The translations under genes and the position numbers were made by a program. A stretch of DNA of 64,000 nucleotides from Rhodospirillaceae bacterium (lineage in GTDB: Bacteria > Pseudomonadota > Alphaproteobacteria > Dongiales > Dongiaceae), in contig SSEL01000023.1 in assembly GCA_008012315.1 (NCBI GenBank), positions 124,001 to 188,000 on the forward strand. Reading direction: 5' to 3'. The stretch's first letter is position 1, and the number at the start of each line of letters is the position of its first letter. The notes under the pieces are model-generated. The model had not been told where the DNA came from. It was given only the letters and a program-made list of their open reading frames with translations, and made no database searches. This document shows positions 4,679-39,363 of the stretch, one piece after another.

Positions 4679-7009
4679 ATGAAGTTCCTGCATGCCAATG
4701 CGCCGCGTTTCCCGATTTCCGAGATCGAACGTCTGGCTGAACAGCATTTCGGCCTCAGGGGCGCCCTGGAACCGCTTTACAGCGAGCGCGACCAGAATGT
4801 CAGATTGCGTGAGGCCGACGGCAAAGCCTGGGTTCTCAAAATCTCCAACACGGAAGAGCCTGAAGACATCATCAATGCGCAGATCGAGACGCTGCGCCAT
4901 ATCGCTGCCGTCGATCCGACGCTGCCCGTGCCGCGCGTCCGATCCTGTAAGACGGGCGAAGCGACGGTGCGGATCGCATCGGGCGACGAAAAATCGCAGC
5001 ATCTTTTCTATGTGCTGTCATTTCTCGATGGACGGATCGCCGATGCCTCGGTCCTAGACACGGCGATGAACCGCAAGATCGGCACGATGGTGGCCCGGCT
5101 CGGGCGGGCGATGCGCGGCCTCTCCTTGCCGGCGATCGCCAATCGCGGCTTGCTGTGGGATATTCGCGAAATTTCGAAATTCCAGCCTTATGTCGACCTG
5201 CTGCCGGCTGCACATCGGGACATGGTCCGGCATATCGTCAGCAGCTTCGAACCCGCCGTGCTGCCGTCCCTGGCGCGGTTGCGTGCGCAGGTGATCCATG
5301 CGGATGTGCATGCGCATAATCTGATCGTGACGGAGGGCACCTCGCCGGAAATCGCCGGCATCATCGATTTCGGCGACATGGTGCATGGGCCGCTGGTCCT
5401 CGATATCACCAATGCCATCGCGGATTTCACCATCACGCCGGACAAGGCCGTGGAGGTGATGCAGGCGATGCTCGCGGCCTATCATGCGGTGACGCCATTG
5501 GAGGAAGAAGAGGCCGGCCTTCTCTATGATCTCATTCTCGCACGCCTGCTACTGACCCCCCTGACCAATGCCGTGCGCTCCAAGGAAACGCCGGACGAAG
5601 CCAATTATCTGGCCGAATATGGCGAAACGGGCCTGGATGCCTGCGCGGCGATCATCGCAATCGGCCGCGAGGCGTTCACACGAAAGGCTTTTGCGGCCTG
5701 TGGCAACTTTAAGGGCAAGACGGCAGCTGTCGGTGTCGATCGCATGATCGAGCGCCGCAAAGCGGTGATGGGTTCGCGCCTCTATGTCTTCTACGACCCG
5801 CCCCTGCATATGGTGTCTGGCGAAGGTGTCTGGCTAACCAGTGCCGAAGGGAAGCGCTATCTCGACTGCTACAACAACGTGCCGCATGTCGGTCATTGTC
5901 ATCCCCATGTCGTCAATGCCTTGACCCAGCAGATCAAGACGCTCAACACGAATACGCGGTATCTGGGCGAGCAGGTGCTGGACTACAGCGAACGCCTGGG
6001 CGCGACGTTGCCGGGAAAATTGAAGGTCTGTGCCTTCGTCAATTCGGGCAGTGAGGCCAATGACATCGCCTGGCGCATGGCCAAGGCCTATACCGGCAAT
6101 ACCGGTGGCTTGACCATGGATTTCGCCTATCACGGCATCACCGATGCGGTCGACGCCTTCTCGCCGTCAGGCAGCCTGACCGGTGCCATCGCACCGCATA
6201 TGCGGACCCTGGTGGCACCGGACGGCTATCGCGGTATCCATAAATATGGCACGCCCGATCTCGGCCGGCTTTATGCCGAGGATGCCGACCGGGCGATCGC
6301 GTCGCTGGCGGAGGCCGGGATGAAGCCGGCCGCCTTCATGGTCGATTCCGCTTTCATGACCAATGGCGTGCTGGAGCCGCAGAAGGATTATCTGGCAAGC
6401 GTTTTCGCCAAGGTACGGGCTGCGGGCGGCCTTTGCATCGGCGATGAGGTGCAGTCGGGTTTCGGACGCATGGGCGATATGATGTGGGGCCATGCACATC
6501 ACGACGTCGTGCCGGATATCGTCACGATCGGCAAGCCGGCCGGCAACGGTCACCCGCTCGGCGTGGTCATCACCACGCCGGAGATCATGGAGTGTTTCCT
6601 CAGGGAAACCGCTTTCTTCTCGACATTCGGCGGTAACAACGTCTCCTGCGCGGCGGGTCTTGCGGTGCTCGATGTCATCGAGCGCGAGAACCTGATCCGG
6701 AATTCCAGCGTGACCGGGCGATATCTCAAAGACGGCATCAAGCGGCTGATGGAGAAGCACGACCTGATCGGCGATGTGCGTGGGACGGGGCTGGCGCTCG
6801 GTGTCGAGCTGGTGACCGATCGCAAGAAACTGACGCCGGCAAAAGACGAGACGGCACGCGTCCTGAATTTCATGCGGGATGAGGGTGTGCTGATCGGCAG
6901 CGAAGGTGTGCTGGGCAACATCCTGAAGATTCGCCCGCCCGTCGTCTTCCAGCGCGGGCATGCGGATATCGCGATTGCGGCCTTGGATCGGGCGCTGTCG
7001 AAGATCTAA
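4679..7009 (+). CDS. Fused APH-family kinase and class III PLP enzyme (putative kinase-phospholyase)
   Basis: This 776-residue cytoplasmic protein has two enzymes in one chain. Residues 1-340 are an aminoglycoside-phosphotransferase/choline-kinase fold: the ATP lysine is in VLKIS (Lys54), the catalytic loop is HADVHAHN (Asp209, Asn214) and the metal DFG is at 230-232. Residues 355-776 are a class III aminotransferase fold with the PLP lysine Lys619 in TIGKPAGNG. Human relatives of the halves are hydroxylysine kinase and the AGXT2L phospholyases, which eliminate phosphate from phosphoethanolamine or phosphohydroxylysine. I infer sequential phosphorylation and elimination on a hydroxylated amine. 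Some bacterial relatives carry an additional M23 peptidase domain; it is absent here. GAGAG precedes the ATG. Confidence 0.9.
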   Translation: MKFLHANAPRFPISEIERLAEQHFGLRGALEPLYSERDQNVRLREADGKAWVLKISNTEEPEDIINAQIETLRHIAAVDPTLPVPRVRSCKTGEATVRIASGDEKSQHLFYVLSFLDGRIADASVLDTAMNRKIGTMVARLGRAMRGLSLPAIANRGLLWDIREISKFQPYVDLLPAAHRDMVRHIVSSFEPAVLPSLARLRAQVIHADVHAHNLIVTEGTSPEIAGIIDFGDMVHGPLVLDITNAIADFTITPDKAVEVMQAMLAAYHAVTPLEEEEAGLLYDLILARLLLTPLTNAVRSKETPDEANYLAEYGETGLDACAAIIAIGREAFTRKAFAACGNFKGKTAAVGVDRMIERRKAVMGSRLYVFYDPPLHMVSGEGVWLTSAEGKRYLDCYNNVPHVGHCHPHVVNALTQQIKTLNTNTRYLGEQVLDYSERLGATLPGKLKVCAFVNSGSEANDIAWRMAKAYTGNTGGLTMDFAYHGITDAVDAFSPSGSLTGAIAPHMRTLVAPDGYRGIHKYGTPDLGRLYAEDADRAIASLAEAGMKPAAFMVDSAFMTNGVLEPQKDYLASVFAKVRAAGGLCIGDEVQSGFGRMGDMMWGHAHHDVVPDIVTIGKPAGNGHPLGVVITTPEIMECFLRETAFFSTFGGNNVSCAAGLAVLDVIERENLIRNSSVTGRYLKDGIKRLMEKHDLIGDVRGTGLALGVELVTDRKKLTPAKDETARVLNFMRDEGVLIGSEGVLGNILKIRPPVVFQRGHADIAIAALDRALSKI

Positions 7010-8239: not shown

Positions 8240-10885
8240 TCAAGGCTCCAATACGCGGCGTATCGAGCGTGCCAAATCTTCCGTGCGGTACGGCTTGCTC
8301 AGGATGGTGGGGTGAATCTCGGGAGACGACTTGTTGAGCGCGGTTTCGGGGAAGCCTGAGGTCAGGAGAACGCGAATGCGTGGCCACCGCCTGGCAACCT
8401 CCGCGGCGAGCTTAAGTCCGTTCATTTCGCCGGGCATGATCACGTCGGAAAAAACCAGATCGATATCTTCGCTGCCCCGCTCGATGATATCGATGGCCTG
8501 CTTCGCATCGGCTGCCGCCCGAATCTGGTAACCCAGGCCGGCAAGCTGTCGTTGCACCAGCTGTCGTACCGCCGAATTGTCCTCCACCACGAGAATTTTC
8601 ACGGTGCTATCTGCCTTGATCGATTCCGGGGCGGCTTCCGTTGCATTGGCTGATGCGGCGATATGCTGAGCCCTCGGCAAGTAGAGACGGAATACGGTGC
8701 CATTGCCGACCTCGCTATAGACGGTCACATGGCCGCCTGACTGCTTCACGAAGCCATACACCATGGCAAGGCCAAGGCCGGTTCCCTTATTGGTTTCTTT
8801 CGTGGTGAAGAAAGGCTCGAAGATATGCGCCAGAATTTCGGGCGACATGCCTGTGCCGGTATCGGTGATGGAAATGACCACATAATCTCCGGCGGAAAGA
8901 TCAATGCGCGTCGGCATGGAGGTGTCATCGATACGGGTATTGGAGGTTTCGATGGTCAGCATGCCGCCATTCGGCATGGCATCGCGTGCATTGACGGCCA
9001 GATTGAGAACGGCGGCATCCAGTTGCGCGGCATCCACCAGCACTGGCCAGACGGCATCACCTTCGGCAAGCTCGATACGGACACCTTCGCCGAGCGTCCG
9101 GGTGAGCAGTTTCACCATGCCCCGTACCAGCCGGTTCACATCGACGATGGCCGGCTTCAACGTCTGCCGCCGGCCGAAGGCCAGCAACTGCCGGGTCAGG
9201 TCAGCCCCGCGTTGGCAGGCATCCAGTGCACTGTTCAACAGCGCACTCGCCTCCTGACGGTCATTGACATAGCGAAGGCTGAGATCGATGTTGCCCATCA
9301 GGATCGTCAACAGATTGTTGAAGTCGTGGGCAATGCCGCCGGTCAGGTTGCCGATGGCTTCCATCTTCTGCGCCTGCCGGAGCTGTTCCTCGATGCGCTT
9401 CTGATTGGTGACATCGTTCATCAAGACGACCCGGCCGAGCGTTTCGCCGTGGTGAATAGGGGCGGAAGACATCCGGATATCGATCAAGCGGCCGTCCTTG
9501 CGTCGGCGTTTCAGCTCGATTTCGCGGATGATGCCTTCTGCTCCTCTTAACGCGATTGCCTTTCCTTCGTCTTCGGCGGTCACGGTCGGATCGGGAGCGC
9601 CGATCACGTCTTCGGCCGGATAGCCAAAAATGTCTTCCGCGGCCTGGTTCCAGGTCAGTACCCTGCCGTCTTCATCGACGGTTTCGATGGCGATCGGTGA
9701 GGAATCCAAGACAGCGGATAAAAGCTCGTTCGTCTGGCGCAACTGGTTGCCGGCGGCGACGGCAGCGGCCTGCGCCTGTTCCCGTTCCTGGACCTCGGCG
9801 CGCAACGCCGCAGTCCGCTTGCGAACCTTCCGCTCCAATGTCTCGTGCAAATGCGCGCGTTCGAGCGCCACGGCGATCTGGCTGCCGATGCCGGACAGGG
9901 TGCGTAGTTCCTCTTCCGAGAATTTCAGTTCGGATGACCCGATGAGGTTGAAGATGCCCCTGGCTTCGCCATCCGCCACCAATGCCACGCTCGCGTGATA
10001 GCGTAAATCGCCCACATTCTTTGCCTTGGCCAGGCGTTCGCATTCCAGAACCTGGGCGCGTACCGCATTATCCTTTGTGCCGAACAATCGCTGACAGGCA
10101 CAATCTCCACAGAGAGACCCGCCATCGAACAATCCTTCCGGCGCACCCTTGATCGCCGCGAGGCGAAAGGCGCCATCCTCCAGCAAATAGATCCAGCCGG
10201 CCTTGACGCCGGGAAGCGCCAAGCCATTCTCCACGGCGCTGGTGGCGACTTCACTTTCGCTGCGACAGCGGTTCAAGCCTTCGGCGATGCCATAGAGTGC
10301 GTTGAGTGTCTTATAGGACTGCGTCAGCTCCTGCTGCCGTTGCTCCAGGGATTCATTGAGATGAACCGCCTGTTCATAGGTCGAGATGAGCAGATCGAGA
10401 ATCTGCTGCCGGCCGGCAGTGATGAAATGCCGCTGACCCGATAATTCGATCTCGATACCGACTTCGAGTTTGCCAACGCCACGGAGGTCGCGATTGGTCA
10501 ACAGGTAATTGATGCGCGATAGCAGCAGGCTCTCGTCATAAGGTTTGACGATGAAATTGTCGGCACCGGAATCGAGACCTTTAAAGACATCGTGGGGACT
10601 GGAAAGCGAGGTGACGAGAATGAAAGGAATGCTGCTGGTCTTCAGGCTGGTCTTGATCGTCCGGCAAAGCGTATAGCCATCCATCTCCGGCATGACGATA
10701 TCGCTGATGATCAGGTCGGGCATCTCCGCTTCGATCATCGACAAGGCCTGCCGGCCATTTTTGGCGATCAGAACTTCAAATCGCTGTTCTTCCAGAAGGA
10801 AGGCCAGTTGCTGCGCCTGGGTGGTGCTGTCTTCGGCGATCAGCAATCTCGCTGCTTTCTTATTGTCATGGTTTTTTGATGTCAT
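8240..10885 (-). CDS. Hybrid histidine kinase (REC-GAF-PAS-HisKA-HATPase-REC)
   Basis: 881 residues from the ATG at 10885, one base after the CheB stop; a longer frame reaches back into cheB and is unlikely. Domains in order: receiver (Asp62 in [11 protein letters not shown]); coiled linker; GAF at about 195-345, with a Cys259-x2-Cys262-x-Cys264 cluster; coiled coil 345-385; PAS 390-495; dimerisation helix with phospho-His520 in [11 protein letters not shown]; ATPase with [11 protein letters not shown] and [11 protein letters not shown]; and a second receiver with [13 protein letters not shown]. No transmembrane helix is visible, so it is cytoplasmic. It probably takes a signal through the first receiver from the CheA-like kinase and passes phosphate to its own second receiver or to the downstream REC-EAL. 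Confidence 0.92.
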
Positions 10886-27172: not shown

Positions 27173-27199
27173 CGCAGAAGGTCGCATGAACGCGACGTC

Positions 27200-27227
27200 T
27201 TGACAGCGCCGATCAACGGCGGATGAT
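27200..27227 (+). promoter_or_regulatory. Possible promoter of the AmiC-like gene
   Basis: A perfect TTGACA (27200-27205) is followed after 16 bases by GATGAT (27222-27227; 4 of 6 consensus positions). It lies in the 89-base gap after the GGT gene, 34 bases before the AmiC-like ATG. Read-through from the GGT operon is equally possible. Confidence 0.35.
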
Positions 27228-27261
27228 CGTCAGCCAGCGATCACTGTGCGAGGCCTGGCTG

Positions 27262-28419
27262 ATGGGACTTGACCGCGCTTACTGGAACTTCGGTGTCCTG
27301 GCGTCGCAGACGGGTGTTGCCGCGATTACCGAACGGACCCAGCTCAACGGAGCATTATTGGCCATTGAGGAAATCAATGCCCAAGGCGGGATCGATGGCC
27401 GGCCGATACGGCCGGTCATCTACGATCCCGGATCGGTTCCCGCCAATTTCGCCACCTATGCGCGGCGAATGCTCGCCGACAACAACGTGAACATCATTTT
27501 CGGCTGCTATATGTCGAGCCAGCGGAAGGCGGTTCTGCCGATCATCCGTGAATACGGCGCCCTGCTTTGTTATCCGACGATGTATGAGGGCTTTGAGTTT
27601 TCCGACAACGTGATCTACTCGGGCGCGGCGCCGAACCAGAACAACATCCCCATGGCTAAATACATGATGGAACATTGCGGCGAGACGTTCTGCCTCGTCG
27701 GATCTGATTATCTGTTCCCGCGTGAGGCCAATCGCATTTTTAAGGAAACCATTCAAGCACTTGGTGGGTCCGTCCTGTCGGAAGACTACCTGCCGCTGGA
27801 GGCCGATGCGGCGGCGGTGGAACCGGTGATCGACCGGATGGTTGCCTTGGAGCCGGATGCGATCTTTTCGACGATCGTCGGCGATTCCACGATCCCATTC
27901 TATCGCGGCCTGGCAAAGGTGCGGGCCGGCCGGCGACACATCCCTGTCGGCAGCCTGAATACCAGCGAGGCGGAGATTGCCGTCATGGGCCCCGCTGTGG
28001 CTTCAGGGCATTTGATTTCAATGCCTTACCTCACTCCGATCGATAGCGAAACGAATGCGCGATTCAAGCGCCAATATGGCGCGCGTTTCGGCGGCGCCGG
28101 CATCACCAGCTGTACGGAGGCCGCTTATTTCCAGGTGCATCTGGTCGCCCGGGCTATTGCCGAGATCGGCACCGATGACACCCATGCGGTGGTGCGCGCG
28201 TTGCATAACCGCCGCTTTGCCGCGCCAGAAGGTGAAGTCTGGGTCGATCCGGAGAACAACCATACCTATCTCTGGCCGCGCATCGCCGAAATCGGCGCAA
28301 AAGGCGAGCTCAATATCGTGCAAGACTGCGCAGCACCGGTGAAGCCGGATCCCTATCTGGTTTTCCCGCGAGATCGCGACGACGATGGCCGGCATCTGCT
28401 GGCCGAAGTCGTCAGCTAG
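27262..28419 (+). CDS. AmiC-like cytoplasmic ligand sensor (type 1 periplasmic-binding fold)
   Basis: 385 residues from the ATG at 27262, which aligns with the AmiC N-terminus (FGVLASQTGV, GALLAIEEINAQGG); the frame begins 13 codons earlier. It has no signal peptide, unlike the related UrtA 1.9 kb downstream, and so should be a cytoplasmic sensor. The type 1 solute-binding fold is seen in FGCYMSSQRKAVLPI, YPTMYEGFE and WPRIAE. In Pseudomonas, AmiC sequesters the antiterminator AmiR and releases it on binding amide. The next gene is AmiR-like, so the same control is inferred, with urea or a short amide as ligand. Confidence 0.85.
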   Translation: MGLDRAYWNFGVLASQTGVAAITERTQLNGALLAIEEINAQGGIDGRPIRPVIYDPGSVPANFATYARRMLADNNVNIIFGCYMSSQRKAVLPIIREYGALLCYPTMYEGFEFSDNVIYSGAAPNQNNIPMAKYMMEHCGETFCLVGSDYLFPREANRIFKETIQALGGSVLSEDYLPLEADAAAVEPVIDRMVALEPDAIFSTIVGDSTIPFYRGLAKVRAGRRHIPVGSLNTSEAEIAVMGPAVASGHLISMPYLTPIDSETNARFKRQYGARFGGAGITSCTEAAYFQVHLVARAIAEIGTDDTHAVVRALHNRRFAAPEGEVWVDPENNHTYLWPRIAEIGAKGELNIVQDCAAPVKPDPYLVFPRDRDDDGRHLLAEVVS

Positions 28420-28428
28420 GGCGCGCCG

Positions 28429-29034
28429 ATGACCCCAACGCTGCTCCGCGATCTGCGCCTGCTGCAGGTTCTCGTCAACCATCCGGAAGACACCGATTGT
28501 CAAACGCTGGTGAGGCATTTGCACCGGATTGGCTGCCGGGTCGATGTGGAATGGCCGCCGGCCGAAGTGCCGCCGCTCTGGCCCGATGTGATCTTTCTGA
28601 TGATCAAGCAGGAGATGGTGGCGCAGTACAAAAGCGCCTGGGCGGAACAACATGAGCGCGGCCCCGCTTTGATCATCATCGTTGACTACGAAGATCCGAC
28701 GACATTGCAGACGGTGCTGGAAATGTCGCCGAATGCGGTCATCGGCAAACCGATCCAGCCTTATGGCGTGCTCGCCAATCTCGTCGTCGCGCGGCAGTCG
28801 AAACTGCATCACGTCGAACACCATCAGGCGATTGAAAAACTTGAACGAAAGCTGAAATCAGTGAAGCTGATCAGCCAAGCGAAAGCGGTGCTGATGAACC
28901 AGCACGGCATCAGCGAGGAAGAGGCTTATCGTCGCCTGCGAAGCCAGGCGATGGCGAACCGTGTGACAACGGAAGATATTGCCATGAGCCTGATCAGTGC
29001 GGGCAATCTGCTGAAAAAGTCAGGATTGCCTTGA
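28429..29034 (+). CDS. AmiR/NasT-type response regulator with ANTAR RNA-binding domain
   Basis: 201 residues. The N-terminal pseudo-receiver (about 1-125) lacks the acidic DD pair of true receivers, as in AmiR, so it is not phosphorylated in the usual way. A coiled coil follows at about 128-150, then the ANTAR domain: LISQAKAVLMNQHGISEEEAYRRLRSQAM, the classical three-helix pattern with the conserved Ala and Tyr. It binds tandem RNA hairpins and prevents termination. It lies 9 bases after the AmiC-like gene. Its stop codon overlaps the -35 box of the promoter for the urea operon leader, which carries matching hairpins. Confidence 0.9.
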   Translation: MTPTLLRDLRLLQVLVNHPEDTDCQTLVRHLHRIGCRVDVEWPPAEVPPLWPDVIFLMIKQEMVAQYKSAWAEQHERGPALIIIVDYEDPTTLQTVLEMSPNAVIGKPIQPYGVLANLVVARQSKLHHVEHHQAIEKLERKLKSVKLISQAKAVLMNQHGISEEEAYRRLRSQAMANRVTTEDIAMSLISAGNLLKKSGLP

Positions 29035-29059
29035 CGGCATCCGGCGATCGCGTTCTAAT
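29031..29059 (+). promoter_or_regulatory. Sigma70-type promoter of the urea/urease operon
   Basis: TTGACG (29031-29036) and TCTAAT (29054-29059), each 5 of 6 matches to consensus, are separated by exactly 17 bases. The -35 box overlaps the stop codon of the ANTAR regulator gene. The expected start at about 29066-29067 lies directly before the first leader hairpin, which is the arrangement expected for a transcribed antitermination leader. Confidence 0.7.
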
Positions 29060-29067
29060 GCGTTGGA

Positions 29068-29124
29068 CTGATCGAGGCTGATCAGGGAGTAGCACCTGCG
29101 TATAGTCGGGCAACGATGCCCGGC
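29068..29124 (+). promoter_or_regulatory. Tandem hexaloop hairpins, predicted ANTAR-binding RNA leader
   Basis: Hairpin P1: CTGATC (29068-29073) pairs with GATCAG (29080-29085) around a six-base loop GAGGCT. Hairpin P2: GTCGGGC (29105-29111) pairs with GCCCGGC (29118-29124) around a six-base loop AACGAT. Published ANTAR targets have two hexaloops with A at position 1 and G at position 4. P2 fits both; P1 has G at 4 but G rather than A at 1. The intrinsic terminator follows 15 bases later, separate from P2, as in the nasF leader. The adjacent regulator supports binding here. Confidence 0.72.
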
Positions 29125-29139
29125 AAGAGACAGCAACGG

Positions 29140-29175
29140 AGCTCCGAGAGGTATTTACCTCGCGGGGCTTTTTTT
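29140..29175 (+). terminator. Leader intrinsic terminator upstream of urtA
   Basis: A 13-base arm, AGCTCCGAGAGGT, pairs with ACCTCGCGGGGCT (one G-U pair, one A-G mismatch) around loop ATTT, and seven Ts follow immediately. It stands after the ANTAR gene and the P1/P2 hairpins but before urtA, so without antitermination transcription should stop here. It is the strongest Rho-independent terminator in the window. Confidence 0.88.
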
Positions 29176-29287
29176 GTGTTCCGAAGGCAGCGGTGCAGTT
29201 GGCTGCCATCAAAAAAAACATAATTGAACCGGCTAGTTGCCGGTCTGGGCTTTAGGAAACGCAACCGAACCTAACAGGGGAAGGGCG

Positions 29288-30535
29288 ATGTCTCTCTCAA
29301 GACGTAATCTGCTCAAGGGAGCAGCGATATCTGCTGCCGTCATTCAAGCGCCATTGGTGTTTCGTACGCTGAGTTCCCGTGCCTGGGCCGCAGACGAAAT
29401 TCCTGTCGGCGTGATGTATTCGCTTTCCGGCACGACGGCGATCGTCGAGAAATCGATGAACCAATGCGCCTTGATGGCGATCGAGCAACTCAATGCGAAA
29501 GGCGGCGTGCTCGGCAAAAAGCTGAAGCCGATCGTCGAGGATCCGAATTCGGACCCGCGCACCTATGGCGAAAAAGCGCGCAAGCTGATCATCGATGACA
29601 AGGTGCCGGTGATTTTCGGCTGCTATACGACGGCCAGCCGCAAGGCTGTGCTGCCTGTCGTCGAGCGGCGCAAGAATCTGCTGGTCTGGCCAACCTGGTA
29701 TGAGGGCGAGGAATGTTCGAAACACATCCTCTATGCCGGTTCCGCCGTTCCCAACCAGCAATTGGAAAACTCCATTCCTTATCTGGTCAATAAGCTGGGG
29801 AAGAAGAAGCTGTTCATTGTCGGATCAGATTATGCTTTCCCGCGCGGCATGGCCAAGACGACGAAGATCATCTGCCAGAAATTGGGCGCTGAAGTCGTCG
29901 GTGACGAATACCTGCCACTCGGGCACTCGGAATGGGCCGCCATGGTTTCAAAGATCGGCAAGAGCGGTGCCGATGCGATCTTCTCCAACGTGGTCGGTGA
30001 TTCCATCGTCGCCTTCTATCGGGAGTTCCGGAATCAAGGCTATGATTTCGATAAGCTGCCGCTTTGCTCTTCGACGACGACGGAGGTCGAAATCAAGGCG
30101 ATGGGGCCGGAATATGCCCTTGGCAGCTATGTGTCCTTGCCTTATTTCCAGTCGGTCGATACGCCGGAAAACAAGAAGTTCGTGGCCGATTTCAAGGCCT
30201 ATGCCGGCGCGGATTCGGTGACGCATGCGGCCATGGAGGCCGTCTATATCGGCGTGAACATCTGGGCCATGGCGGCGGCGAAGGCGAAGGACGTTGCACC
30301 GGAGGCAGTGATCGACAATGCCGGCGGCATCGAATTTGCCGCACCGCAGGGCAAGGTCAAGATCGATCCGGAGAACCTGCACACCTATCTGACACCGCGG
30401 ATCGGCCAGACCCAATCAGATGGGCAGTTGAAGATCGTCGATCAATACAGCGAGCCTCTGGTACCTTTGCCCTATTCCAGTCAGGGCGAGACGGCTGAAA
30501 AGCGTATCTGCACGACAAAGGGTGCGATGCTTTAA
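29288..30535 (+). CDS. urtA: Urea ABC transporter substrate-binding protein UrtA
   Basis: 415 residues from the ATG at 29288 behind AGGGGAAGGG; a frame begins 17 codons earlier in the leader. A twin-arginine-type signal (MSLSRRNLLKGAAISAAVI) is removed at about residue 35. The mature protein has the UrtA words VGVMYSLSGTTAIVEKSM, FGCYTTASRKAVLP, WPTWYEGEECS and LGSYVSLPYFQ. It binds urea in the periplasm for the UrtBCDE importer. It resembles the AmiC-like sensor encoded upstream, so the sensor may have arisen from a UrtA-type ancestor. A strong hairpin follows, which would favour excess UrtA. Confidence 0.95.
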   Translation: MSLSRRNLLKGAAISAAVIQAPLVFRTLSSRAWAADEIPVGVMYSLSGTTAIVEKSMNQCALMAIEQLNAKGGVLGKKLKPIVEDPNSDPRTYGEKARKLIIDDKVPVIFGCYTTASRKAVLPVVERRKNLLVWPTWYEGEECSKHILYAGSAVPNQQLENSIPYLVNKLGKKKLFIVGSDYAFPRGMAKTTKIICQKLGAEVVGDEYLPLGHSEWAAMVSKIGKSGADAIFSNVVGDSIVAFYREFRNQGYDFDKLPLCSSTTTEVEIKAMGPEYALGSYVSLPYFQSVDTPENKKFVADFKAYAGADSVTHAAMEAVYIGVNIWAMAAAKAKDVAPEAVIDNAGGIEFAAPQGKVKIDPENLHTYLTPRIGQTQSDGQLKIVDQYSEPLVPLPYSSQGETAEKRICTTKGAML

Positions 30536-30649: not shown

Positions 30650-31540
30650 GTGGAAACCATCATCATCGGTCTGAGTATCGCGTCAATTCTGTTCCTGGTT
30701 GCCTTGGGCCTGGCGATCATTTACGGCGCAATGAAAATCATCAATCTCGCCCATGGCGAAATGGTGATGATCGGCGCCTATGTCACGGTGCTGGCGACCA
30801 AGCATCTGGGCGCCAATCTCTATCTCTGTATTCCCATTGCCTTCATCGTCACGGCGGCGATCGGCTACGGGCTGGAAGTCATCATCGTGCGGCGGCTCTA
30901 TGGGCGTCTGCTGGATACGTTGCTGGCGACCTGGGGGGTATCGCTCATCCTGCAGCAATTGATCCGCATTCATCTGGGCCTCGGGCTCTTCGATATCCAC
31001 ATCGACGGCCTGGGTTCCGATCTCCAGAATGTGCAGGTGCCGGAATTGCTGCGCCAGACCCTGACACTGGGTGATGCCAATATTCCTGTCTATCGCGCTT
31101 TTGTCTTTATCGTCGCGATCTTGCTCGGTTGCATCACGTGGTGGCTGGTCTATCGGACGCATTTCGGCGCGCAGCTGCGCGCTGTATCGGTCGCCCGCGG
31201 CATCGCCTCCTGCTGTGGCATTAACGAAAAGCGCATCAACAGCCTGGCTTTTGCCTATGGCAGCGGGCTTGCCGGTATCGCCGGTGTGATGGTGTCTGGC
31301 TTCAAGACGGTTTCGCCGGATATGGGAACGCCTTATGTCATCGACGCCTTCCTGGTCGTCGTGGCTGGCGGTGTCGGTCATCTCTTCGGCACCGTCGCCT
31401 CGGCCGGTATCCTCGGCGAGCTGCAGAGTTATGTGTCCTCGATACTGAACGACGTCTATGGCCGCACCGCTGTGTTCGCCACGGTCATCGCCGTCCTTCT
31501 GTGGAAGCCGCAAGGCTTGTTCGTGATCCGGAGTCGCTGA
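30650..31540 (+). CDS. urtB: Urea ABC transporter permease UrtB
   Basis: 296 residues with a GTG start preceded by GGAGCAGG. It is a LivH-type branched-chain permease with about eight membrane segments. Family patterns include LGLAIIYGAMKIINLAHGEMVMIGAY near the start and the loop FGAQLRAVSVARGIASCCGINEKRIN, which contacts the ATPase. It forms the membrane channel with UrtC. UrtB proteins from some bacteria carry a long N-terminal extension; this one is the short form. Confidence 0.95.
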   Translation: METIIIGLSIASILFLVALGLAIIYGAMKIINLAHGEMVMIGAYVTVLATKHLGANLYLCIPIAFIVTAAIGYGLEVIIVRRLYGRLLDTLLATWGVSLILQQLIRIHLGLGLFDIHIDGLGSDLQNVQVPELLRQTLTLGDANIPVYRAFVFIVAILLGCITWWLVYRTHFGAQLRAVSVARGIASCCGINEKRINSLAFAYGSGLAGIAGVMVSGFKTVSPDMGTPYVIDAFLVVVAGGVGHLFGTVASAGILGELQSYVSSILNDVYGRTAVFATVIAVLLWKPQGLFVIRSR

Positions 31541-31542
31541 GT

Positions 31543-32700
31543 ATGATCAGGCAGGATTTGATCGCCGCCCGCAAGCATCGCATTCAATTGCAATGCTATG
31601 TCGCATTCATCGCCATTCTTCTCATGCTGCCGCTCATGCTCGATGCCTTCTGGCTGAACCGCATTGCGACCTATCTTGTCTATGGCATCTGCGCCGTCGC
31701 GATTTGCCTGTCCTGGGGATGGGCCGGCATCTTGAACCTTGGTCAGGGTGCCTTCTTCGGCATGGGCGCGTATATGATGGCGATGTCGCTGACCCTGGCC
31801 AGTCCGGATAACAACCCGGTGCCGCAACTGATGCTGCTCAACATGGAGCCGACCGCACCGCGCGAGCTTTGCTGCATCACGCCGGGATCGTTCCTTTGGA
31901 TCCCCTTCCGCTGGCAGGCGGTCGGTGTCGCGGCGTCGATCATCGTCCCGATGATCATGGCCCTAGGTATCGGCTATGCGATGTTCAAGCGCCGCACCAG
32001 TGGTGTCTATGTCTCCATCATCACACTGGCTCTGGCGCTCATCATCCAGTTGATCATCATCAACAACCAGCCCTTGACCGGCGGCTTCAACGGCCTGGCG
32101 GACCTGGCGCCTCTGACGATCGGCAGCTTCGAATTCGATCCTTATGGCAACAGCACCTATTATCTTGTCACGGCGGTTCTGGCGGCGGCGCTGTTCGGCG
32201 GCCGTTATTTGCTGAGCGGCAAGATGGGATTGATTCTGCGGGCAACCCAGGAAGACGAAGCCCGCCTGCGGTTCCTCGGCTATGAAGTCGAGAAATATAA
32301 GATGCTGGCTTTCTGTCTTTCGGCGGGGTTGGCCGGTCTGGCCGGCATGCTCTTCGTCATATGTGCGGAATTTGCCTCGCCGGCTTTGATGGCGACGGGA
32401 TTCAGCGTCTCCATGGTGATCTGGGCAGCCGTCGGCGGACGCCATTCCCTGATGGGAGCCTGCGTCGGCGCGGTGCTGGTGAATGTCATCGGCGCCGGCG
32501 CCAGCGAAAGCCCCCTGTTCCAACCGATCTGGCCGATCATCCTCGGCCTGCTTTTCATCGGCGTCGTGCTGGTGATGCCGAATGGCATCGCCGGCGTTTT
32601 CGACAGCTTGCTCGATCGGAAGTTACGCAATGGCGGCGCTGCAGCATCAACCGATGCCAAGCATGTGTCACCACGCCCCAAGACATCGGAGGCGCGCTGA
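31543..32700 (+). CDS. urtC: Urea ABC transporter permease UrtC
   Basis: 385 residues from the ATG at 31543, two bases after the UrtB stop; the frame is open 14 codons upstream inside urtB. This LivM-type permease has the conserved LSWGWAGILNLGQGAFFGMGAYMMAM, a periplasmic insert with two adjacent cysteines (ELCCITPG), and the ATPase-contact loop SGKMGLILRATQEDEARLRFLGY. Its stop overlaps the urtD start by one base. Confidence 0.95.
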   Translation: MIRQDLIAARKHRIQLQCYVAFIAILLMLPLMLDAFWLNRIATYLVYGICAVAICLSWGWAGILNLGQGAFFGMGAYMMAMSLTLASPDNNPVPQLMLLNMEPTAPRELCCITPGSFLWIPFRWQAVGVAASIIVPMIMALGIGYAMFKRRTSGVYVSIITLALALIIQLIIINNQPLTGGFNGLADLAPLTIGSFEFDPYGNSTYYLVTAVLAAALFGGRYLLSGKMGLILRATQEDEARLRFLGYEVEKYKMLAFCLSAGLAGLAGMLFVICAEFASPALMATGFSVSMVIWAAVGGRHSLMGACVGAVLVNVIGAGASESPLFQPIWPIILGLLFIGVVLVMPNGIAGVFDSLLDRKLRNGGAAASTDAKHVSPRPKTSEAR

Positions 32701-33497
32701 TGCAGGACATCGTTTCCCAGCCGACGAACGACCCTCAAGCCGGTGCGCCCTGGGCGCTTGAAACGACCGATCTGACCGTCAAATTCGATGAGTTTCCCTC
32801 GGTCAACGGTGTGAATCTAAAAGTGGAAGCCGGTGAGCTGCGTGTCATTATCGGTGCCAATGGCGCCGGCAAATCAACGCTGCTCGACCTCATCTGCGGC
32901 AAGACCCGGCCGACCAGCGGCGTCATCCTGTTACGCGGACGAGACGTGACGGGCATCGGTGAAGCGCAGATCGCCCGTGCCGGAATCGGCCGCAAGTTCC
33001 AGACGCCGACCGTCTTCAAGTCGATGTCGGTCTGGGAGAACCTGCAAGTCGCGGGCAACAAGCAGTTCGGCGTCTCACATAATTTCCTCTGCCGGACCGA
33101 GTCATCACCGGCGGAACAGCAGAGGCAGGTCATCGATCAGATTGGCCTTGGCAGCTTGTTGCACCGCTCCGCGGCGGAGCTTTCCCATGGTCAGTTGCAA
33201 TGGCTGGAACTCGGCATGTTACTGATGCAAAGCCCCTCCATCCTGCTGTTGGATGAACCCACCGCCGGGATGACGACGGAAGAAACCGACAAGACGGCGG
33301 ATATCATCCGATCTCTCGCAGGCAATCATACAATCCTGGTCATCGAGCATGACATGGCCTTCGTCAGGCAGATTTGCCGCAAGATCACCGTGCTCCACCA
33401 GGGCCGCATCCTCGCCGAGGGGGCGGCCGAGGAAATCGAACGCAATGCGGATGTCATCCAGGCCTATCTGGGATCGGCGATGGTGAGCCATGCTTGA
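32700..33497 (+). CDS. urtD: Urea ABC transporter ATP-binding protein UrtD
   Basis: 265 residues from the ATG that shares one base with the urtC stop; a much longer frame reaching back into urtC is a reading artefact. Walker A GANGAGKST, the signature LSHGQLQWLELGMLL (LivG group), Walker B ILLLDEPTAGM and the switch His in IEHDMAFV are all present. One of the two ATPases of the importer. It overlaps urtE by 8 bases. Confidence 0.95.
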   Translation: MQDIVSQPTNDPQAGAPWALETTDLTVKFDEFPSVNGVNLKVEAGELRVIIGANGAGKSTLLDLICGKTRPTSGVILLRGRDVTGIGEAQIARAGIGRKFQTPTVFKSMSVWENLQVAGNKQFGVSHNFLCRTESSPAEQQRQVIDQIGLGSLLHRSAAELSHGQLQWLELGMLLMQSPSILLLDEPTAGMTTEETDKTADIIRSLAGNHTILVIEHDMAFVRQICRKITVLHQGRILAEGAAEEIERNADVIQAYLGSAMVSHA

Positions 33498-34185
33498 TGT
33501 AAAGAACCTGCACGCCTATTACGACAGCAGCCATATTCTGCATGGCATCGATCTGGAAATCCGCCAGGGCGAAATCTTCTGCCTGCTGGGGCGGAACGGT
33601 GTCGGCAAGACGACTTTCCTGAAAAGCCTGCTCGGCCTGACGGTCCGCACCGAGGGGACGGTGCAATTCGACGGACGGGAAATCGCCGACCTCGACACCT
33701 ATGAACGGGCAAGGCTCGGCATCGCCTATGTGCCGCAGGGGCGGGAGATCGTTCCCGGCCTCACCGTGCTCGAGAATATCCGCCTCGGCTGTTTTGCCCG
33801 GCGCGACCGCAAGGTGACAATTCCCGAGTACATCTGGTCGATGTTCCCGTTCCTGCGCGAACACCTCAACCGGCGTGGCACCAATCTCTCCGGCGGCCAG
33901 CAGCAGCAGCTTGCCATCGCACGGGCGCTGGCATCGGAGCCGACCGTCCTGCTGATGGACGAGCCGACCGAAGGCATCCAGCCGAATGTGGTGCAGGAGA
34001 TCGAGCGCACGATCGTTCGCCTCAACCGCGAATTCGGCCTGACGATCATCCTGGTCGAACAGAAGGTGCAATTCGCCCGCACCTCCTGTCATCGCTTCGC
34101 GTTCATTGAGAAAGGGCAGATCGCAGCCGCCGGCGCCGCAGCCGACTTATCGGACACGCTGCTGCATCGCTACATGGCGGTCTGA
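33490..34185 (+). CDS. urtE: Urea ABC transporter ATP-binding protein UrtE
   Basis: 231 residues, LivF-type ATPase: Walker A GRNGVGKTT, the signature LSGGQQQQLAIARAL, Walker B VLLMDEPTEGIQPNVV and the switch region ILVEQKVQFA. It forms the heterodimeric motor with UrtD. The start overlaps urtD by 8 bases. The urease accessory gene ureE follows after 19 bases, so uptake and hydrolysis are a single transcription unit. Confidence 0.95.
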   Translation: MLDVKNLHAYYDSSHILHGIDLEIRQGEIFCLLGRNGVGKTTFLKSLLGLTVRTEGTVQFDGREIADLDTYERARLGIAYVPQGREIVPGLTVLENIRLGCFARRDRKVTIPEYIWSMFPFLREHLNRRGTNLSGGQQQQLAIARALASEPTVLLMDEPTEGIQPNVVQEIERTIVRLNREFGLTIILVEQKVQFARTSCHRFAFIEKGQIAAAGAAADLSDTLLHRYMAV

Positions 34186-34204: not shown

Positions 34205-34696
34205 ATGCTGATGGCGGAAAAATCTGTCGCAACCGGTGCCGATCCGTTGCGGCTGGACGCAATCCTCGGATTGCTGTCCGAGCCCTCGATGGCGGATTAC
34301 ATCCATGATATCGGCCAACATGGTGTCATCGAATATATCGATCTCGGCGGCGATGATATCCGGCGTCATCGGCTGAGGGTGACGACCGATCGCGGCACCG
34401 ACTGTGCGATCTCGCTGCCGCGCAGCCAGCATTTGCAGAACGGCGCCGTTCTGCTTGCGGAAAAGGACCGCGCCATCATCGTGCGGATGCTTGCCCGGGA
34501 ATGGCTGCGGCTGGCGCCCAGGGATGCCGCAGCGGCACTGGAGCTTGGCTATTTCGCCGGCAACATGCATTGGCCGGTCCGCTTCGACTCGGAGCTGCTG
34601 CTGATCGAACTCCAGGGGCCGCGGCAGCGTTATCTCGATCGCCTCGACTTCATGGTCGCAGCCGGGCAGATCCGCATCGTCGAGGAGGCGGCGTGA
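34205..34696 (+). CDS. ureE: Urease accessory protein UreE (nickel metallochaperone)
   Basis: 163 residues from the ATG at 34205 behind GGAGAGGGAG; a frame extends upstream into urtE without coding logic. The UreE N-terminal peptide-binding domain and the C-terminal dimer domain with GNMHWPVRF (metal-binding His region of UreE) are recognisable. The chain ends at EEAA with no histidine-rich tail, unlike Klebsiella UreE, so nickel storage capacity should be low. It delivers Ni to the UreDFG-apo-urease complex. Placing ureE and ureF ahead of the structural genes is unusual. Confidence 0.88.
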   Translation: MLMAEKSVATGADPLRLDAILGLLSEPSMADYIHDIGQHGVIEYIDLGGDDIRRHRLRVTTDRGTDCAISLPRSQHLQNGAVLLAEKDRAIIVRMLAREWLRLAPRDAAAALELGYFAGNMHWPVRFDSELLLIELQGPRQRYLDRLDFMVAAGQIRIVEEAA

Positions 34697-35376
34697 CGAC
34701 GGAGACGCAGGCGCTACTGGCAGCTTTCCAGCACGCGGACAGCTTTTTCCCGGGAGGTGCGACCGCATTCTCCTGGGGCTTGGAGACATTGGTGTCGGAT
34801 GGCGTGATCGGTGATGCCGCCAGCGTCGAAGTCTATCTCCGCGCCCAGATCACCCATCGCTGGTCGACATCCGACCTGCCGATGCTGCAGGCGGCGCTGC
34901 TGGCCCGCGAGGACGAGACAAGGCTGATCGAACTCGATCACCTTCTCGACGCGATGTCGCTCGCCGCCCGGCAACGCATCGGTTCGACCCGTTGCGGGGC
35001 GGCCTTGCTTTCCGTTCATATGCGTTTGGGTTCGGCGGCTGCGACCAGCTATCGGGGGCTCGTTAGCCGCGGCGACGCCCTTGGTCATTTGCCCATCGTC
35101 CAGGGCCTGGTTTGGGGGGAGATGGGACTCTCCTTGCCGATCGCCAGCGCTATTTCCGCCAATAGCCTCTGTCAATCGATCGTCAGCGCCGCGATCCGCC
35201 TCGGCATCGTCAGCCATATCGACAGCCAGCTCATCATTGGTCGATTGCGGCCGGTCATCGCAACGGCGATCGATGGCGACGTCCCGGCCGCCGATCAAAG
35301 CCACGCTTATATACCGCAGAGTGAAATCGCGCTGATGCGCCATGAGATCCAGGACAACCGGCTGTTCGCCAATTAA
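34693..35376 (+). CDS. ureF: Urease accessory protein UreF
   Basis: 227 residues from a GTG at 34693 that overlaps the ureE stop (GTGA). The all-helical UreF fold is recognisable from [23 protein letters not shown] near the N-terminus, then the central [18 protein letters not shown] and the C-terminal [12 protein letters not shown]. UreF bridges UreD and the GTPase UreG and gates nickel insertion. A much longer frame starting inside ureE is a shadow. The fused ureAB gene begins 20 bases downstream. Confidence 0.9.
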
Positions 35377-35396
35377 GGGGGAGTGAAGGAAACGTC

Positions 35397-36098
35397 ATGC
35401 TTCTTACACCGACCGAATTCGAGAGATTGACGATTTTTACGGCGGCCGAACTGGCGCGCAAACGGCGCCTGCGCGGCTGCCGCCTCAACCACCCCGAAGC
35501 GACGGCCATCATTGCTGATGAAATCCTGGAAGGTGCCCGCGACGGCCGCTCGGTGGCGGAGCTGATCGGCTATGGCTCGACAATCCTCAATGCCGATGAC
35601 GTCATGCCGGGCGTTGCTGAAATGATGCCGGTATTGCAGGTCGAAGCCACCTTTCCCGACGGGACGAAGCTGGTGACCGTACATGAACCGATCCGTCCAG
35701 GCCGGGCCGCGATGGCGGCAGATGATGCGATCGTCCCGGGAGAGATCATTGCGGCGCCCGGCGATATTGAGCTGAATGCGGGACGTCGGTCCGTGACACT
35801 GGTTGCCAAGAACAGCGGCGACCGGCCAATCCAGGTCGGCAGCCACTATCATTTCTTCGAAGCGAATCGTGCGCTCGATTTCGATCGTGCCGCCGCCTTC
35901 GGCCTGCATCTCGATATTCCCGCAGGTACGGCGGTCCGGTTCGAGCCGGGCGAGGAGAAGGAGGTCACGCTGGTGGCCTTCGGTGGTGCGGGCGAAATTC
36001 TCGGTCTCAATGGCCTGACCGATGGATCGACCTTGTCCGACGACAACAAGGCTGCCGCCATCGCGCGGGCAAAGGCTGCTGGATTCAGGGGAGCTTGA
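35397..36098 (+). CDS. ureAB: Fused urease gamma-beta subunit (UreA-UreB)
   Basis: 233 residues combining two normally separate small subunits. Residues 1-100 are the gamma subunit ([46 protein letters not shown]). Residues from about 115 are the beta subunit ([46 protein letters not shown]). The junction is about 15 residues with no extra domain. Such fusions are known in Helicobacter and some alphaproteobacteria, where the enzyme is built from two polypeptides. It is a cytoplasmic structural component. GAAGGAAA precedes the ATG. Confidence 0.95.
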
Positions 36099-36103
36099 TT
36101 GGC

Positions 36104-37816
36104 ATGGCACGGATTTCGCGGCGCGATTATGCGGCAATGTACGGACCGACCACGGGAGACGCCGTTCGTCTCGGCGATACATCCTTGTTGGCGGAAGTGG
36201 AATTCGACCATGCCGTCTATGGCGATGAATGTCTGCATGGCGGCGGCAAGACCTTGCGCGACGGGCTCGGCCTTGCGGCCGGCGTCGATAGCGCCATGGG
36301 CTCGCTCGACATGCTGGTCAGCAATGCCGTCATCATCGATCCGGTCGTCGGCATCGTCAAAGGCGATATCGGCATCAAGGAAGGCAAGATCGTCGGCATC
36401 GGCAAGGCCGGCAATCCGGCCACGATGGACGGCGTCGATACCAAACTGATCTGTGCCGCGGCGACCACGGTGCGTGACGCCGAAGGCTTGATTGCCACGC
36501 CGGGCGGGATCGATGTCCATGTGCATTTCGACAGCGCACAGCTCTGCGAACACGCGATCTCGTCCGGCCTGACGACCATGATCGGCGGATCGCTGGGGCC
36601 GATCACCGTCGGCATCGATTGCGGCGGTGCCTGGAATGCCGGCAAGATGCTGCAGGCGGCGGAGAACTGGCCGATCAATTTCGGCTTCCTCGGCCGCGGC
36701 AACAGTTCGAAGCCGAAATCCTTGCTGGACCAGCTGGCCGGCGGCGTCATGGGGATGAAGATCCATGAAGACTGGGGCGCCATGCCCTCGGTCATCGATG
36801 TCTGCCTGTCGGTCGCGGATGAATATGACTTCCAGGTGCAGTTGCATACCGACACGCTGAACGAGAGCGCCTTCCTGGAAGATACGCTGGCGGCCATCAG
36901 GGGCCGGACGATACACATGTATCACACCGAGGGTGCGGGCGGCGGCCATGCGCCGGATATCATTCGCGTCGCCGGTGAGCAATATTGCCTGCCGTCCTCG
37001 ACCAATCCCACCAATCCCTTCACCGTCAATACCTTCGACGAACATCTCGACATGATCATGGTGTGCCACCACCTGAATCCGGCAGTGCCAGAGGATGTGG
37101 CTTTCGCCGAAAGCCGTATCCGGGCGCAGACCATTGCCGCCGAAGATGTGCTGCATGACATGGGTGCCATTTCCATGCTGGGCTCCGACAGCCAGGGAAT
37201 GGGGCGGATCAACGAAGTGATCTGCCGGACCTGGCAGCTCGCCAGCAAGATGAAGGATCAGTTCGGCCGCCTCGGCAGCGAAAAAAGGCGCATCGGCGAC
37301 AACGAACGGATCAAGCGTTACATCGCCAAATACACCATCAATGCCGCGCGCACCTTCGGCATCGATGACTATATCGGCTCGCTGGAGGCGGGAAAGATGG
37401 CCGATATCGTCCTTTGGCGGCCAGCCTTTTTCGGGATCAAGCCGGAACTGGTCATCAAGAGCGGCTTCATCGTCTGGTCCGCCATGGGCGATAGTGCCGC
37501 ATCGCTGATGACCTGCGAGCCGATGGCGATGCGGCCGCAATGGGGTGCCTTCGGCAAGGCGGCACAGCCGCTCAGCGCCAGCTTCGTCTGTCAGGCGGCT
37601 TTGGAAAACGATTTGGCGGGGAAGCTCGATCTGCGGAAGCAGCTTCTTCCCGTACATGGAACGCGAAAGCTGCGTAAGAGCAACATGCTGCATAACGATG
37701 CCTGCCCCGGCATCACCGTCAATCCGCAGAATTTCGATGTCTTCGTCGATGGCAAGCTTGCGACTTGCGAACCAGCAAAGAGGGTGCCGCTATCTCAGCG
37801 GTATATGATGCGATGA
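36104..37816 (+). CDS. ureC: Urease alpha subunit UreC (catalytic)
   Basis: 570 residues from the ATG at 36104 behind GGGGAG; a TTG three codons earlier is less likely. It hydrolyses urea to ammonia and carbamate at a di-nickel site. Nickel ligands can be read: His139 and His141 in DVHVHF, carbamylated Lys219 in GMKIHEDWG, the His of [14 protein letters not shown] and the Asp of [10 protein letters not shown]. The catalytic flap is [19 protein letters not shown], with catalytic His322 or 323. No active-site residue is missing. ureG starts within the stop codon. Confidence 0.97.
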
Positions 37817-38463
37817 TCCAGGATAGCGTTTTGGTGAAGCCTAAGGCGATGTCGGCGGGTGCCGCCCGGGTCGGCATCGGCGGACCGGTCGGATCGGGGA
37901 AGACGGCCTTGCTCGAGCAGATGATCCCGCGCCTGATCGCACGCGGCCGGAACATCGCCGTCGTCACCAATGATCTGGTGACCAAGGAAGATGCGGAGCG
38001 GGTCCGGCGCAGCGGCCTGATCGCGCCGGAACGGGTGCTGGCGGTAGAAACCGGCGCCTGTCCGCATACGGCGATCCGCGAAGACCCGACATTGAACATC
38101 CAGGCTGCCGATGACCTCGAAGCCAGGTTCGCAAATCTTGAACTGGTCTTGATCGAGAGCGGCGGCGACAATCTCGCCTCGACCTTTTCCTTGGATCTTG
38201 TCGATTTCTGGATGTTCGTGATCGATGTTGCCGGCGGCGATGATATTCCGCGCAAGCGCGGGTTGGGCATCCTGCAATCGGATCTGCTGATCATCAACAA
38301 GACCGATCTGGCACCCCATGTTCGGGTCGACCTGCCGCGCATGGTCGCCGAAGCCAATGAGGTGCGCCGCGGTAAGCCGGTCATGCTGACCAATTGTGCT
38401 ACGGGTGCCGGCGTCGATGAGGTGATCGATCACCTGTCATCCACCGTTCTGTTTGATCGCTGA
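37813..38463 (+). CDS. ureG: Urease accessory GTPase UreG
   Basis: 216 residues from the ATG at 37813, overlapping the ureC stop as ATGA; the frame is open 16 codons earlier. It has the P-loop [16 protein letters not shown], the metal-binding Cys-Pro-His in [13 protein letters not shown], the switch [13 protein letters not shown] and the base-specificity NKTDLAP. It hydrolyses GTP to drive nickel transfer into urease together with UreE, UreF and UreD. Confidence 0.96.
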
Positions 38464-38469
38464 GGCGAC

Positions 38470-39363
38470 ATGCCGGAAGACGGTTATCTGCAACAATCCG
38501 CATCGGCCTATGCCGAAACCGCGCGGCCGGTTCTCGGCCGCACCGGATATGCACGGCTCGAAGCCGGCCTGTCACCTGCGGGGAAGAGCTTTCTGCGGCG
38601 GCAGGATGTCTGTTATCCGTTTCATATCTGCCGCCCGTTCTATTTCGACGGCGATCCGAACGGCATGGCGACGATTTATCTCCAATCCTGTGCCGGCGGG
38701 ATCTTCGATGGCGACGATCTGCGGCAGTTGGTTTCGCTGGAAACGAACACCGGCCTGCATGTGACCACCCAGGCTTCGACCATTGTTCATGAGACACCTG
38801 GTTGTGGTGCTGAACAGGTGACGGAATTGCGAGCGGCGGCGGGATGCTTTCTCGAATACCTGCCGGACCCGCTGATCCTCTTTCCAGGTGTTCGGTTGAA
38901 AACGCGGCTGGCCGTCGAACTCGATCCGGATGCGGTCGCTATTTTGGCCGATTCCTTCCTGTGTCACGACCCAAGCGAGCAAGGCAAGGTTTTCGACAGC
39001 CTCTTCAGCGAGACGAAGATCACGATCACCGGCAAGGGGCTGGTCGCCCTGGACCGCTTTGCGATCACCGGCGGCGATTTGCAGGCTAGGCTGATCGGTG
39101 CGAACGGGCCTTACATCGCCCAAGGATCGATGGTCATCCTGCCGGGCCGGATGGCGGTCGATCCATTGATCGACGGCCTGCAAGCGGCGCTGACGGATCA
39201 TCCGGGCGCTTACGCCATGGCGTCACGCCTGTCGCGCGATGCTGGAATTTGGCTGCGGATCCTGGCCCGTGATGCCGTGGCGTTGCGCCGGGTTCAGCGG
39301 ATGGTGTGGATCACTGCCAGACGGATCCTGGTGGGGCGGGAACCGGCGGTCCGCAGCAAATAG
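38470..39363 (+). CDS. ureD: Urease accessory protein UreD/UreH
   Basis: 297 residues, the scaffold that binds apo-urease and receives nickel. Recognisable words are YLQSCAGGIFDGDDLRQ (typical NPGGG.GGD region, here with CAGGIFDGD), VTTQAST and the C-terminal LARDAVALRRVQRMVW. It is the last gene of the urt-ure operon, whereas in most bacteria ureD comes first. GAGG precedes the ATG. The convergent D,D-carboxypeptidase gene ends 69 bases away. Confidence 0.9.
   Translation: MPEDGYLQQSASAYAETARPVLGRTGYARLEAGLSPAGKSFLRRQDVCYPFHICRPFYFDGDPNGMATIYLQSCAGGIFDGDDLRQLVSLETNTGLHVTTQASTIVHETPGCGAEQVTELRAAAGCFLEYLPDPLILFPGVRLKTRLAVELDPDAVAILADSFLCHDPSEQGKVFDSLFSETKITITGKGLVALDRFAITGGDLQARLIGANGPYIAQGSMVILPGRMAVDPLIDGLQAALTDHPGAYAMASRLSRDAGIWLRILARDAVALRRVQRMVWITARRILVGREPAVRSK

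Follow-up and report, generated by a model that had tools for sequence, protein, structure and literature searches.

Known AmiC/AmiR and ANTAR systems and the urt-ure locus

Urease genes are usually described as being controlled by UreR, by NtrC/NAC or by nickel. In the known leaders that are recognized by ANTAR proteins, the second of two hexaloop hairpins is embedded in the terminator and the guanine at loop position 4 (G4) is read by the protein, while the linkers between the stems of the eut leaders measure 5-12 nt and a length of 14 nt is already harmful to induction (PMC3369931, PMC8934654). A pair of A1/G4 hexaloops, of which the second lies within the terminator, is found in EutV/eut of Enterococcus faecalis and in NasR/nasF (PMC3369931, PMC8934654, PMC7496416) as well as in the locus described here; however, the signal would be relayed here by a ligand-binding partner protein in place of phosphorylation or an internal NIT domain. 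With the amidase (ami) operon of Pseudomonas aeruginosa the locus shares a cytoplasmic AmiC-type sensor, an AmiR-type ANTAR protein, a terminator in the target leader and the fold families of the proteins, but here amiC-amiR precedes a urea-type ABC transporter and a urease, with no amidase, and a separate leader lies between amiR and urtA. An enterobacterial plasmid operon (amiC-amiR-amiE-ABC transporter) follows a similar logic of sensor, antiterminator and transporter, yet encodes an amidase instead of a urease and another transporter cluster (PMC13209695). A computational ANTAR motif in front of urea transporter genes has also been reported by Ramesh 2012 (PMC3369931), although these cases were listed among many hits and the text describes neither AmiC/AmiR-urt-urease operons nor urease. 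In the literature searched, with most subscription papers outside its scope, no description of ANTAR control of urease was found. The term "under-described", used for this locus in a first-pass annotation, is thus apt for urease, but not for the control mode, which is that of the known AmiC/AmiR pair, nor for ANTAR RNAs before urea transporters, which have already been published (PMC3369931).

The window, that is, the whole stretch of DNA that was analysed, comprises 64,000 nt of Rhodospirillaceae bacterium GCA_008012315.1 (contig SSEL01000023.1, positions 124,001-188,000, forward strand). From sequence and open reading frames, the order on the + strand is amiC-like, amiR-like, a 253-nt leader, urtABCDE and ureE-F-AB-C-G-D, with the urt-ure gene set downstream of the leader spanning 10 kb. 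This gene set is very probably controlled by an AmiC/AmiR-type transcription antitermination leader. What was observed directly is the anatomy of this leader, how it is conserved and covaries among relatives, and what the genes encode. The genes are:

27223..28419, + strand: amiC-like sensor gene (PF13433; best PDB match AmiC 1pea)
28429..29034, + strand: amiR-like ANTAR antiterminator gene (Pfam AmiR_N and ANTAR; PDB AmiR 1qo0_D)
29288..30535, + strand: urtA-like substrate-binding protein gene (TIGR03407, 408 bits; twin-arginine-type N terminus)
30650..34185, + strand: urtB, urtC, urtD and urtE (NCBIfam equivalogs above cut-off)
34205..39363, + strand: ureE, ureF, ureAB (fused gamma/beta), ureC, ureG and ureD (basis of names given below)

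Based on domain and structure-sequence matches, the regulator genes are an AmiC/AmiR pair. The sensor is a Peripla_BP_5 protein nearer to AmiC than to UrtA (310 bits to AmiC 1pea, 220 bits to the urea-binding 7s6e among PDB sequences), its gene adjoins amiR, and it has no export signal, inspection of the sequence by eye having revealed no signal peptide. Its translation may start at 27265 (MGLDRAYW) instead of 27223; a TTGACA lies just 5' of the annotated start (window 27190-27265), and the later start would leave space for a promoter. The amiR-like protein scores above the Pfam cut-offs for both AmiR_N (114.8 bits) and ANTAR (65.7 bits), matches PDB AmiR 1qo0_D with an E value of 1.5e-23, retains four of the six RNA-contact residues of EutV (residues from PMC8934654) and is encoded by the only ANTAR gene in the whole genome. 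Downstream, the urtA-like protein scores 408 bits on TIGR03407, under that model's cut-off of 492.75. Within the urease genes, ureE and ureAB were named by NCBIfam, and ureF, ureC, ureG and ureD by ORF position together with matches to annotated urease loci. The genome holds one urease, inside the urt-ure operon; an AmiE-like amidase was not found in it, the best match (28% identity) being at nitrilase-family level.

Anatomy of the leader and proposed mechanism

Between amiR and urtA, the following elements were located:

29031..29036, + strand: -35-like hexamer TTGACG (sequence)
29054..29059, + strand: -10-like hexamer TCTAAT, at 17-nt spacing from the -35-like hexamer
29068..29085, + strand: P0, 5' hairpin CTGATC[GAGGCT]GATCAG, formerly called P1 (folding)
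29105..29124, + strand: P1 hairpin GTCGGGC[AACGAT]GCCCGGC, loop 29112-29117, formerly called P2 (folding; covariation in relatives)
29132..29143, + strand: P2 hairpin AGC[AACGGA]GCT, loop 29135-29140 (P2 GGC/GCC invariant in 42 relatives)
29139..29170, + strand: intrinsic terminator stem, 13 pairs around one mismatch, -20.4 kcal/mol
29169..29175, + strand: terminator T7 tract (sequence)

Much of this had been recognized in the first-pass annotation: the GAGGCT and AACGAT hairpins exist where it placed them, its 13-bp terminator with seven Ts corresponds to the stem and T7 tract listed above, and both urtA (29288, after the terminator) and the ANTAR gene directly upstream were correctly located. 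The promoter-like pair over the amiR stop is likewise present as described, with 10 of 12 consensus positions matched by consensus comparison only; a stricter promoter scan did not list it, since TCTAAT lacks an A at position 2. Relatives have similar promoter-like pairs where their amiR ends.

The arrangement of P1 and P2 is that of an ANTAR dual-hexaloop element. Both loops have A1 and G4 and are closed by C-G pairs, the linker between the hairpins is short (7 nt, 29125-29131; loop-to-loop distance 17 nt), P1 covaries in relatives, and P2 excludes the terminator, as its 3' strand sits within the terminator 5' arm (29132-29143 overlapping 29139-29170). P2 itself is weak (three base pairs, -1.1 kcal/mol), and a fold in which it is imposed lies about 5 kcal/mol above the free one.

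The start site, protein binding, read-through and ligand are predicted from this anatomy. Transcription would start around position 29066. As long as no inducer is present, the AmiC-like protein would keep its AmiR-like partner inactive and the emerging transcript would form the terminator at 29139-29170, halting the polymerase after about 110 nt. Binding of a small amide or urea to the AmiC-like sensor would release AmiR, which may then take hexaloop P1 (AACGAT) first and P2 (AACGGA) thereafter; P2 would remove AGCU from the 5' base of the terminator and leave the U-tract hairpin open at its foot, so that the polymerase could run on into urtABCDE-ureEFABCGD. If true, this substrate-responsive RNA antitermination before both a transporter and its enzyme would add an extra layer of control in soil- and plant-associated bacteria.

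Conservation and specificity

Relatives were collected by a scan of genome contigs, in which a single-protein query returned no loci and an alignment-based query gave 80; after addition of plasmid and genome-search loci, 90 loci with homologous amiR formed the leader comparison set. The amiC-amiR-urt gene order is common to alpha- and betaproteobacteria, and urease genes lie downstream in 34 of the 90 loci. Two G4 hexaloops with a loop spacing of 15-18 nt were found in 86 of the 90 leaders. In every one of these 86, the 3' strand of P2 is paired to the stretch that immediately precedes the T run, and the deeper terminator pairs vary with compensation. The first loop position may be A, G or T in P1, and in P2 it is mostly A, T or G; knowing that A1 can be replaced where G4 is retained should be useful for later searches for ANTAR RNAs in proteobacteria.

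Covariation was assessed in 42 distinct relatives, excluding the window and omitting ten leaders with doubtful P1. For P1 it amounted to 0.360 versus 0.148 in shuffles (reached by none of 500; slid controls at most 0.203), and 10 of its 11 pairs change on both sides somewhere. The segments had been picked partly for a short stem and G4 and the ten leaders had been omitted, and the counts of closing pairs and G4 are therefore not independent evidence; the outer P1 pairs largely are. The covariation that the first-pass annotation called for is thus strong in P1, while the P2 pairs never vary and are uninformative in this respect. A covariance search with the ANTAR RNA family had been suggested there as well; searched against Rfam at gathering and relaxed thresholds, the leader matched no relevant family. 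A covariance model built from the 42 relatives and run on window and genome likewise did not recognize the divergent leader: the correct placement received 6.4 bits, which is not significant and is outscored by chance hits in other parts of the window and by a hit to the reverse strand of the leader.

Loci from genomes of the same family offer close comparisons. Two amiC-amiR-urt loci carry the loops P1 [AGCGGC] with P2 [GATGAA] (L002) or P2 [AACGTA] (L003), a third has a leader with weaker P2 (L005), and in L004 the P2 loop AACATA lacks G4. In G015, amiC-amiR-urtA-E runs on into ureEFABC (UreC 87% identical), and its leader combines P1 [AGCGGC] and P2 [AACGTA] at a distance of 18 nt; the amiC-amiR-urt loci of G012 and G014 run on into an aliphatic amidase.

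A geometric rule derived from the relatives requires two G4 hexaloops with C-G closing pairs at a distance of 15-21 nt, and a P2 3' strand that pairs to the arm in front of a T run. Applied to both strands of the 64-kb window, it selected a single site, with loops at 29112 and 29135. On both strands of 1.35 Mb of related loci it selected 64 sites, 53 of them after amiR (49 in relatives, three in the refetched leader of the window itself and one in G015), 10 upstream of amiC and one elsewhere. None of 2000 leader shuffles reached the observed score, which is supporting only, as the window was already known when the rule was made; the sites upstream of amiC, by contrast, played no part in making it. 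There, a second dual-hexaloop element with terminator lies directly upstream of amiC in L052, L061, L066, L078, L088, L091, L094 and L101 (about 5720-5755), and further ones occur at L018:8699 and L022:7876. These elements suggest autoregulation in several relatives; in the window, the rule scan found none upstream of amiC.

Alternative readings of the leader

In the first-pass annotation, GAGGCT served as the loop of P1 and AACGAT as that of P2, jointly controlling the downstream terminator. Both are stable G4 hexaloops, and GAGGCT and AAGGCT serve as the P1 loops of L035 and L047, two relatives linked to urease, but the AACGAT hairpin does not overlap the terminator and leaves it intact, both coexisting in the free structure. 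As the two fold together and the GAGGCT and AACGAT stems are 19 nt apart, where a 14-nt linker already reduced induction in EutV leaders, the pair fails the known ANTAR layout; its loops, moreover, are 32 nt apart compared to 15-18 nt in relatives, and a G4 hexaloop at the P0 position occurs in only 3 of 84 leaders. We consider this assignment very improbable. The AACGAT hairpin, which resembles GGCAACGTTGCC in L057, was dropped as a P2 candidate on terminator overlap and loop spacing. The remark that P1 keeps only G4 accordingly came from choosing the wrong hairpin, and the switch called complete is indeed so, though only after re-assignment, the AACGGA hairpin having been overlooked. A somewhat better case, if still an improbable one, can be made for a three-hairpin leader to which AmiR binds at P0, P1 and P2 in turn: P0 is a C-G closed G4 hexaloop of a kind present in just 89 of 5000 shuffles, and G4 hexaloops lie about 28-30 nt upstream of P1 in L038, L039 and L048 (in L042 with a shorter stem). 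However, the P0 hexaloop is unconserved in most relatives and lies beyond the known inter-hairpin distance. In most relatives the segment from the amiR stop to P1 is more stably folded than its mononucleotide shuffles, with a mean z of -3.1. We regard the GAGGCT hairpin as the form that this 5' hairpin, P0, takes in the window. Terminators are possible at any gene end and the promoter is a consensus match only, which could speak for chance hairpins beside an ordinary amiR terminator, with urt-ure driven from elsewhere; given that the elements are conserved position by position in 86 of 90 leaders and that the rule has a single hit in 64 kb, such a coincidence is extremely improbable. The leader is a real ANTAR-type antitermination leader, with P1 and P2 re-assigned to the AACGAT and AACGGA hairpins.

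Ligand and substrate

Homology, synteny and the conserved build of the leader speak for the chain from sensor via ANTAR protein to read-through, as originally proposed, and urea as the ligand is a prediction. In a UrtA structure, urea contacts Trp120, Ser122, Gln144, Tyr190 and Asn246 (PMC10392092). At these positions the sensor has Tyr, Ser, Met, Tyr and Val, and the UrtA of the window, which does not retain the full set of urea contacts, has Tyr, Thr, Trp, Tyr and Val; judged by these alignments, the canonical urea site is absent from both proteins. The pocket signature YTWTWEYFVT of UrtA (29288-30535) is identical in all seven closest operons, all of which have a urease, and departs from the canonical urea residues. 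Position 144 was also considered as a ligand code (mostly Phe in sensors of urease-only loci, Leu in those of the amidase type), but is broken by L024, L025, L054 and L078 and serves as a lead only.

A variant of the antitermination model, differing in the ligand alone, holds that the sensor answers a short-chain amide and that urt-ure is induced by or for a compound other than urea. In its favour, an amidase is present in many amiCR-urt relatives, the pocket of the sensor resembles that of AmiC, and a urt-like cluster beside amidase genes has been argued to carry amides (PMC3098086). Here, however, the genome is devoid of an AmiE-like amidase and urease is the sole hydrolase of the operon, and none of the seven closest operon relatives has an amidase in the fetched flanks, which makes a non-urea ligand rather unlikely, if worth keeping in mind. 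Urea is the most likely ligand and the most economical substrate, favoured because urease is the only hydrolase that the operon encodes. The system would also offer a clean way to test the ligands of AmiC-like sensors.

Divergence and wider occurrence of the regulator module

UrtA clusters with full support with its counterparts from Aminobacter, Labrys and Aestuariivirga (about 76-80% identity), whereas AmiC and AmiR share only about 41-44% identity with their counterparts in these genera and do not group with them; for AmiC, which sits on a long branch, such a grouping is rejected (AU p 0.003). Exchange of the regulator module, or its rapid evolution, could account for this.

More tentatively, and perhaps a little short of an even chance, these loci could belong to a widespread and largely undescribed AmiC/AmiR urease regulon of Hyphomicrobiales and allies, with a cytoplasmic AmiC variant retuned to urea, a leader reading straight into urease in two genera (L035, L047) and an autoregulatory switch upstream of amiC in several members. 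In these two loci, from Ancylobacter moscoviensis and Bosea sp. 117, amiC-amiR and the ANTAR leader are followed by ureE-F-AB-C-G-D with neither urt nor amidase genes in between. A further variation is seen in L122 (G001), where two amiR-like genes lie about 0.6 kb apart (8650-10409), separated by a masked stretch and a further leader of terminator-like appearance.
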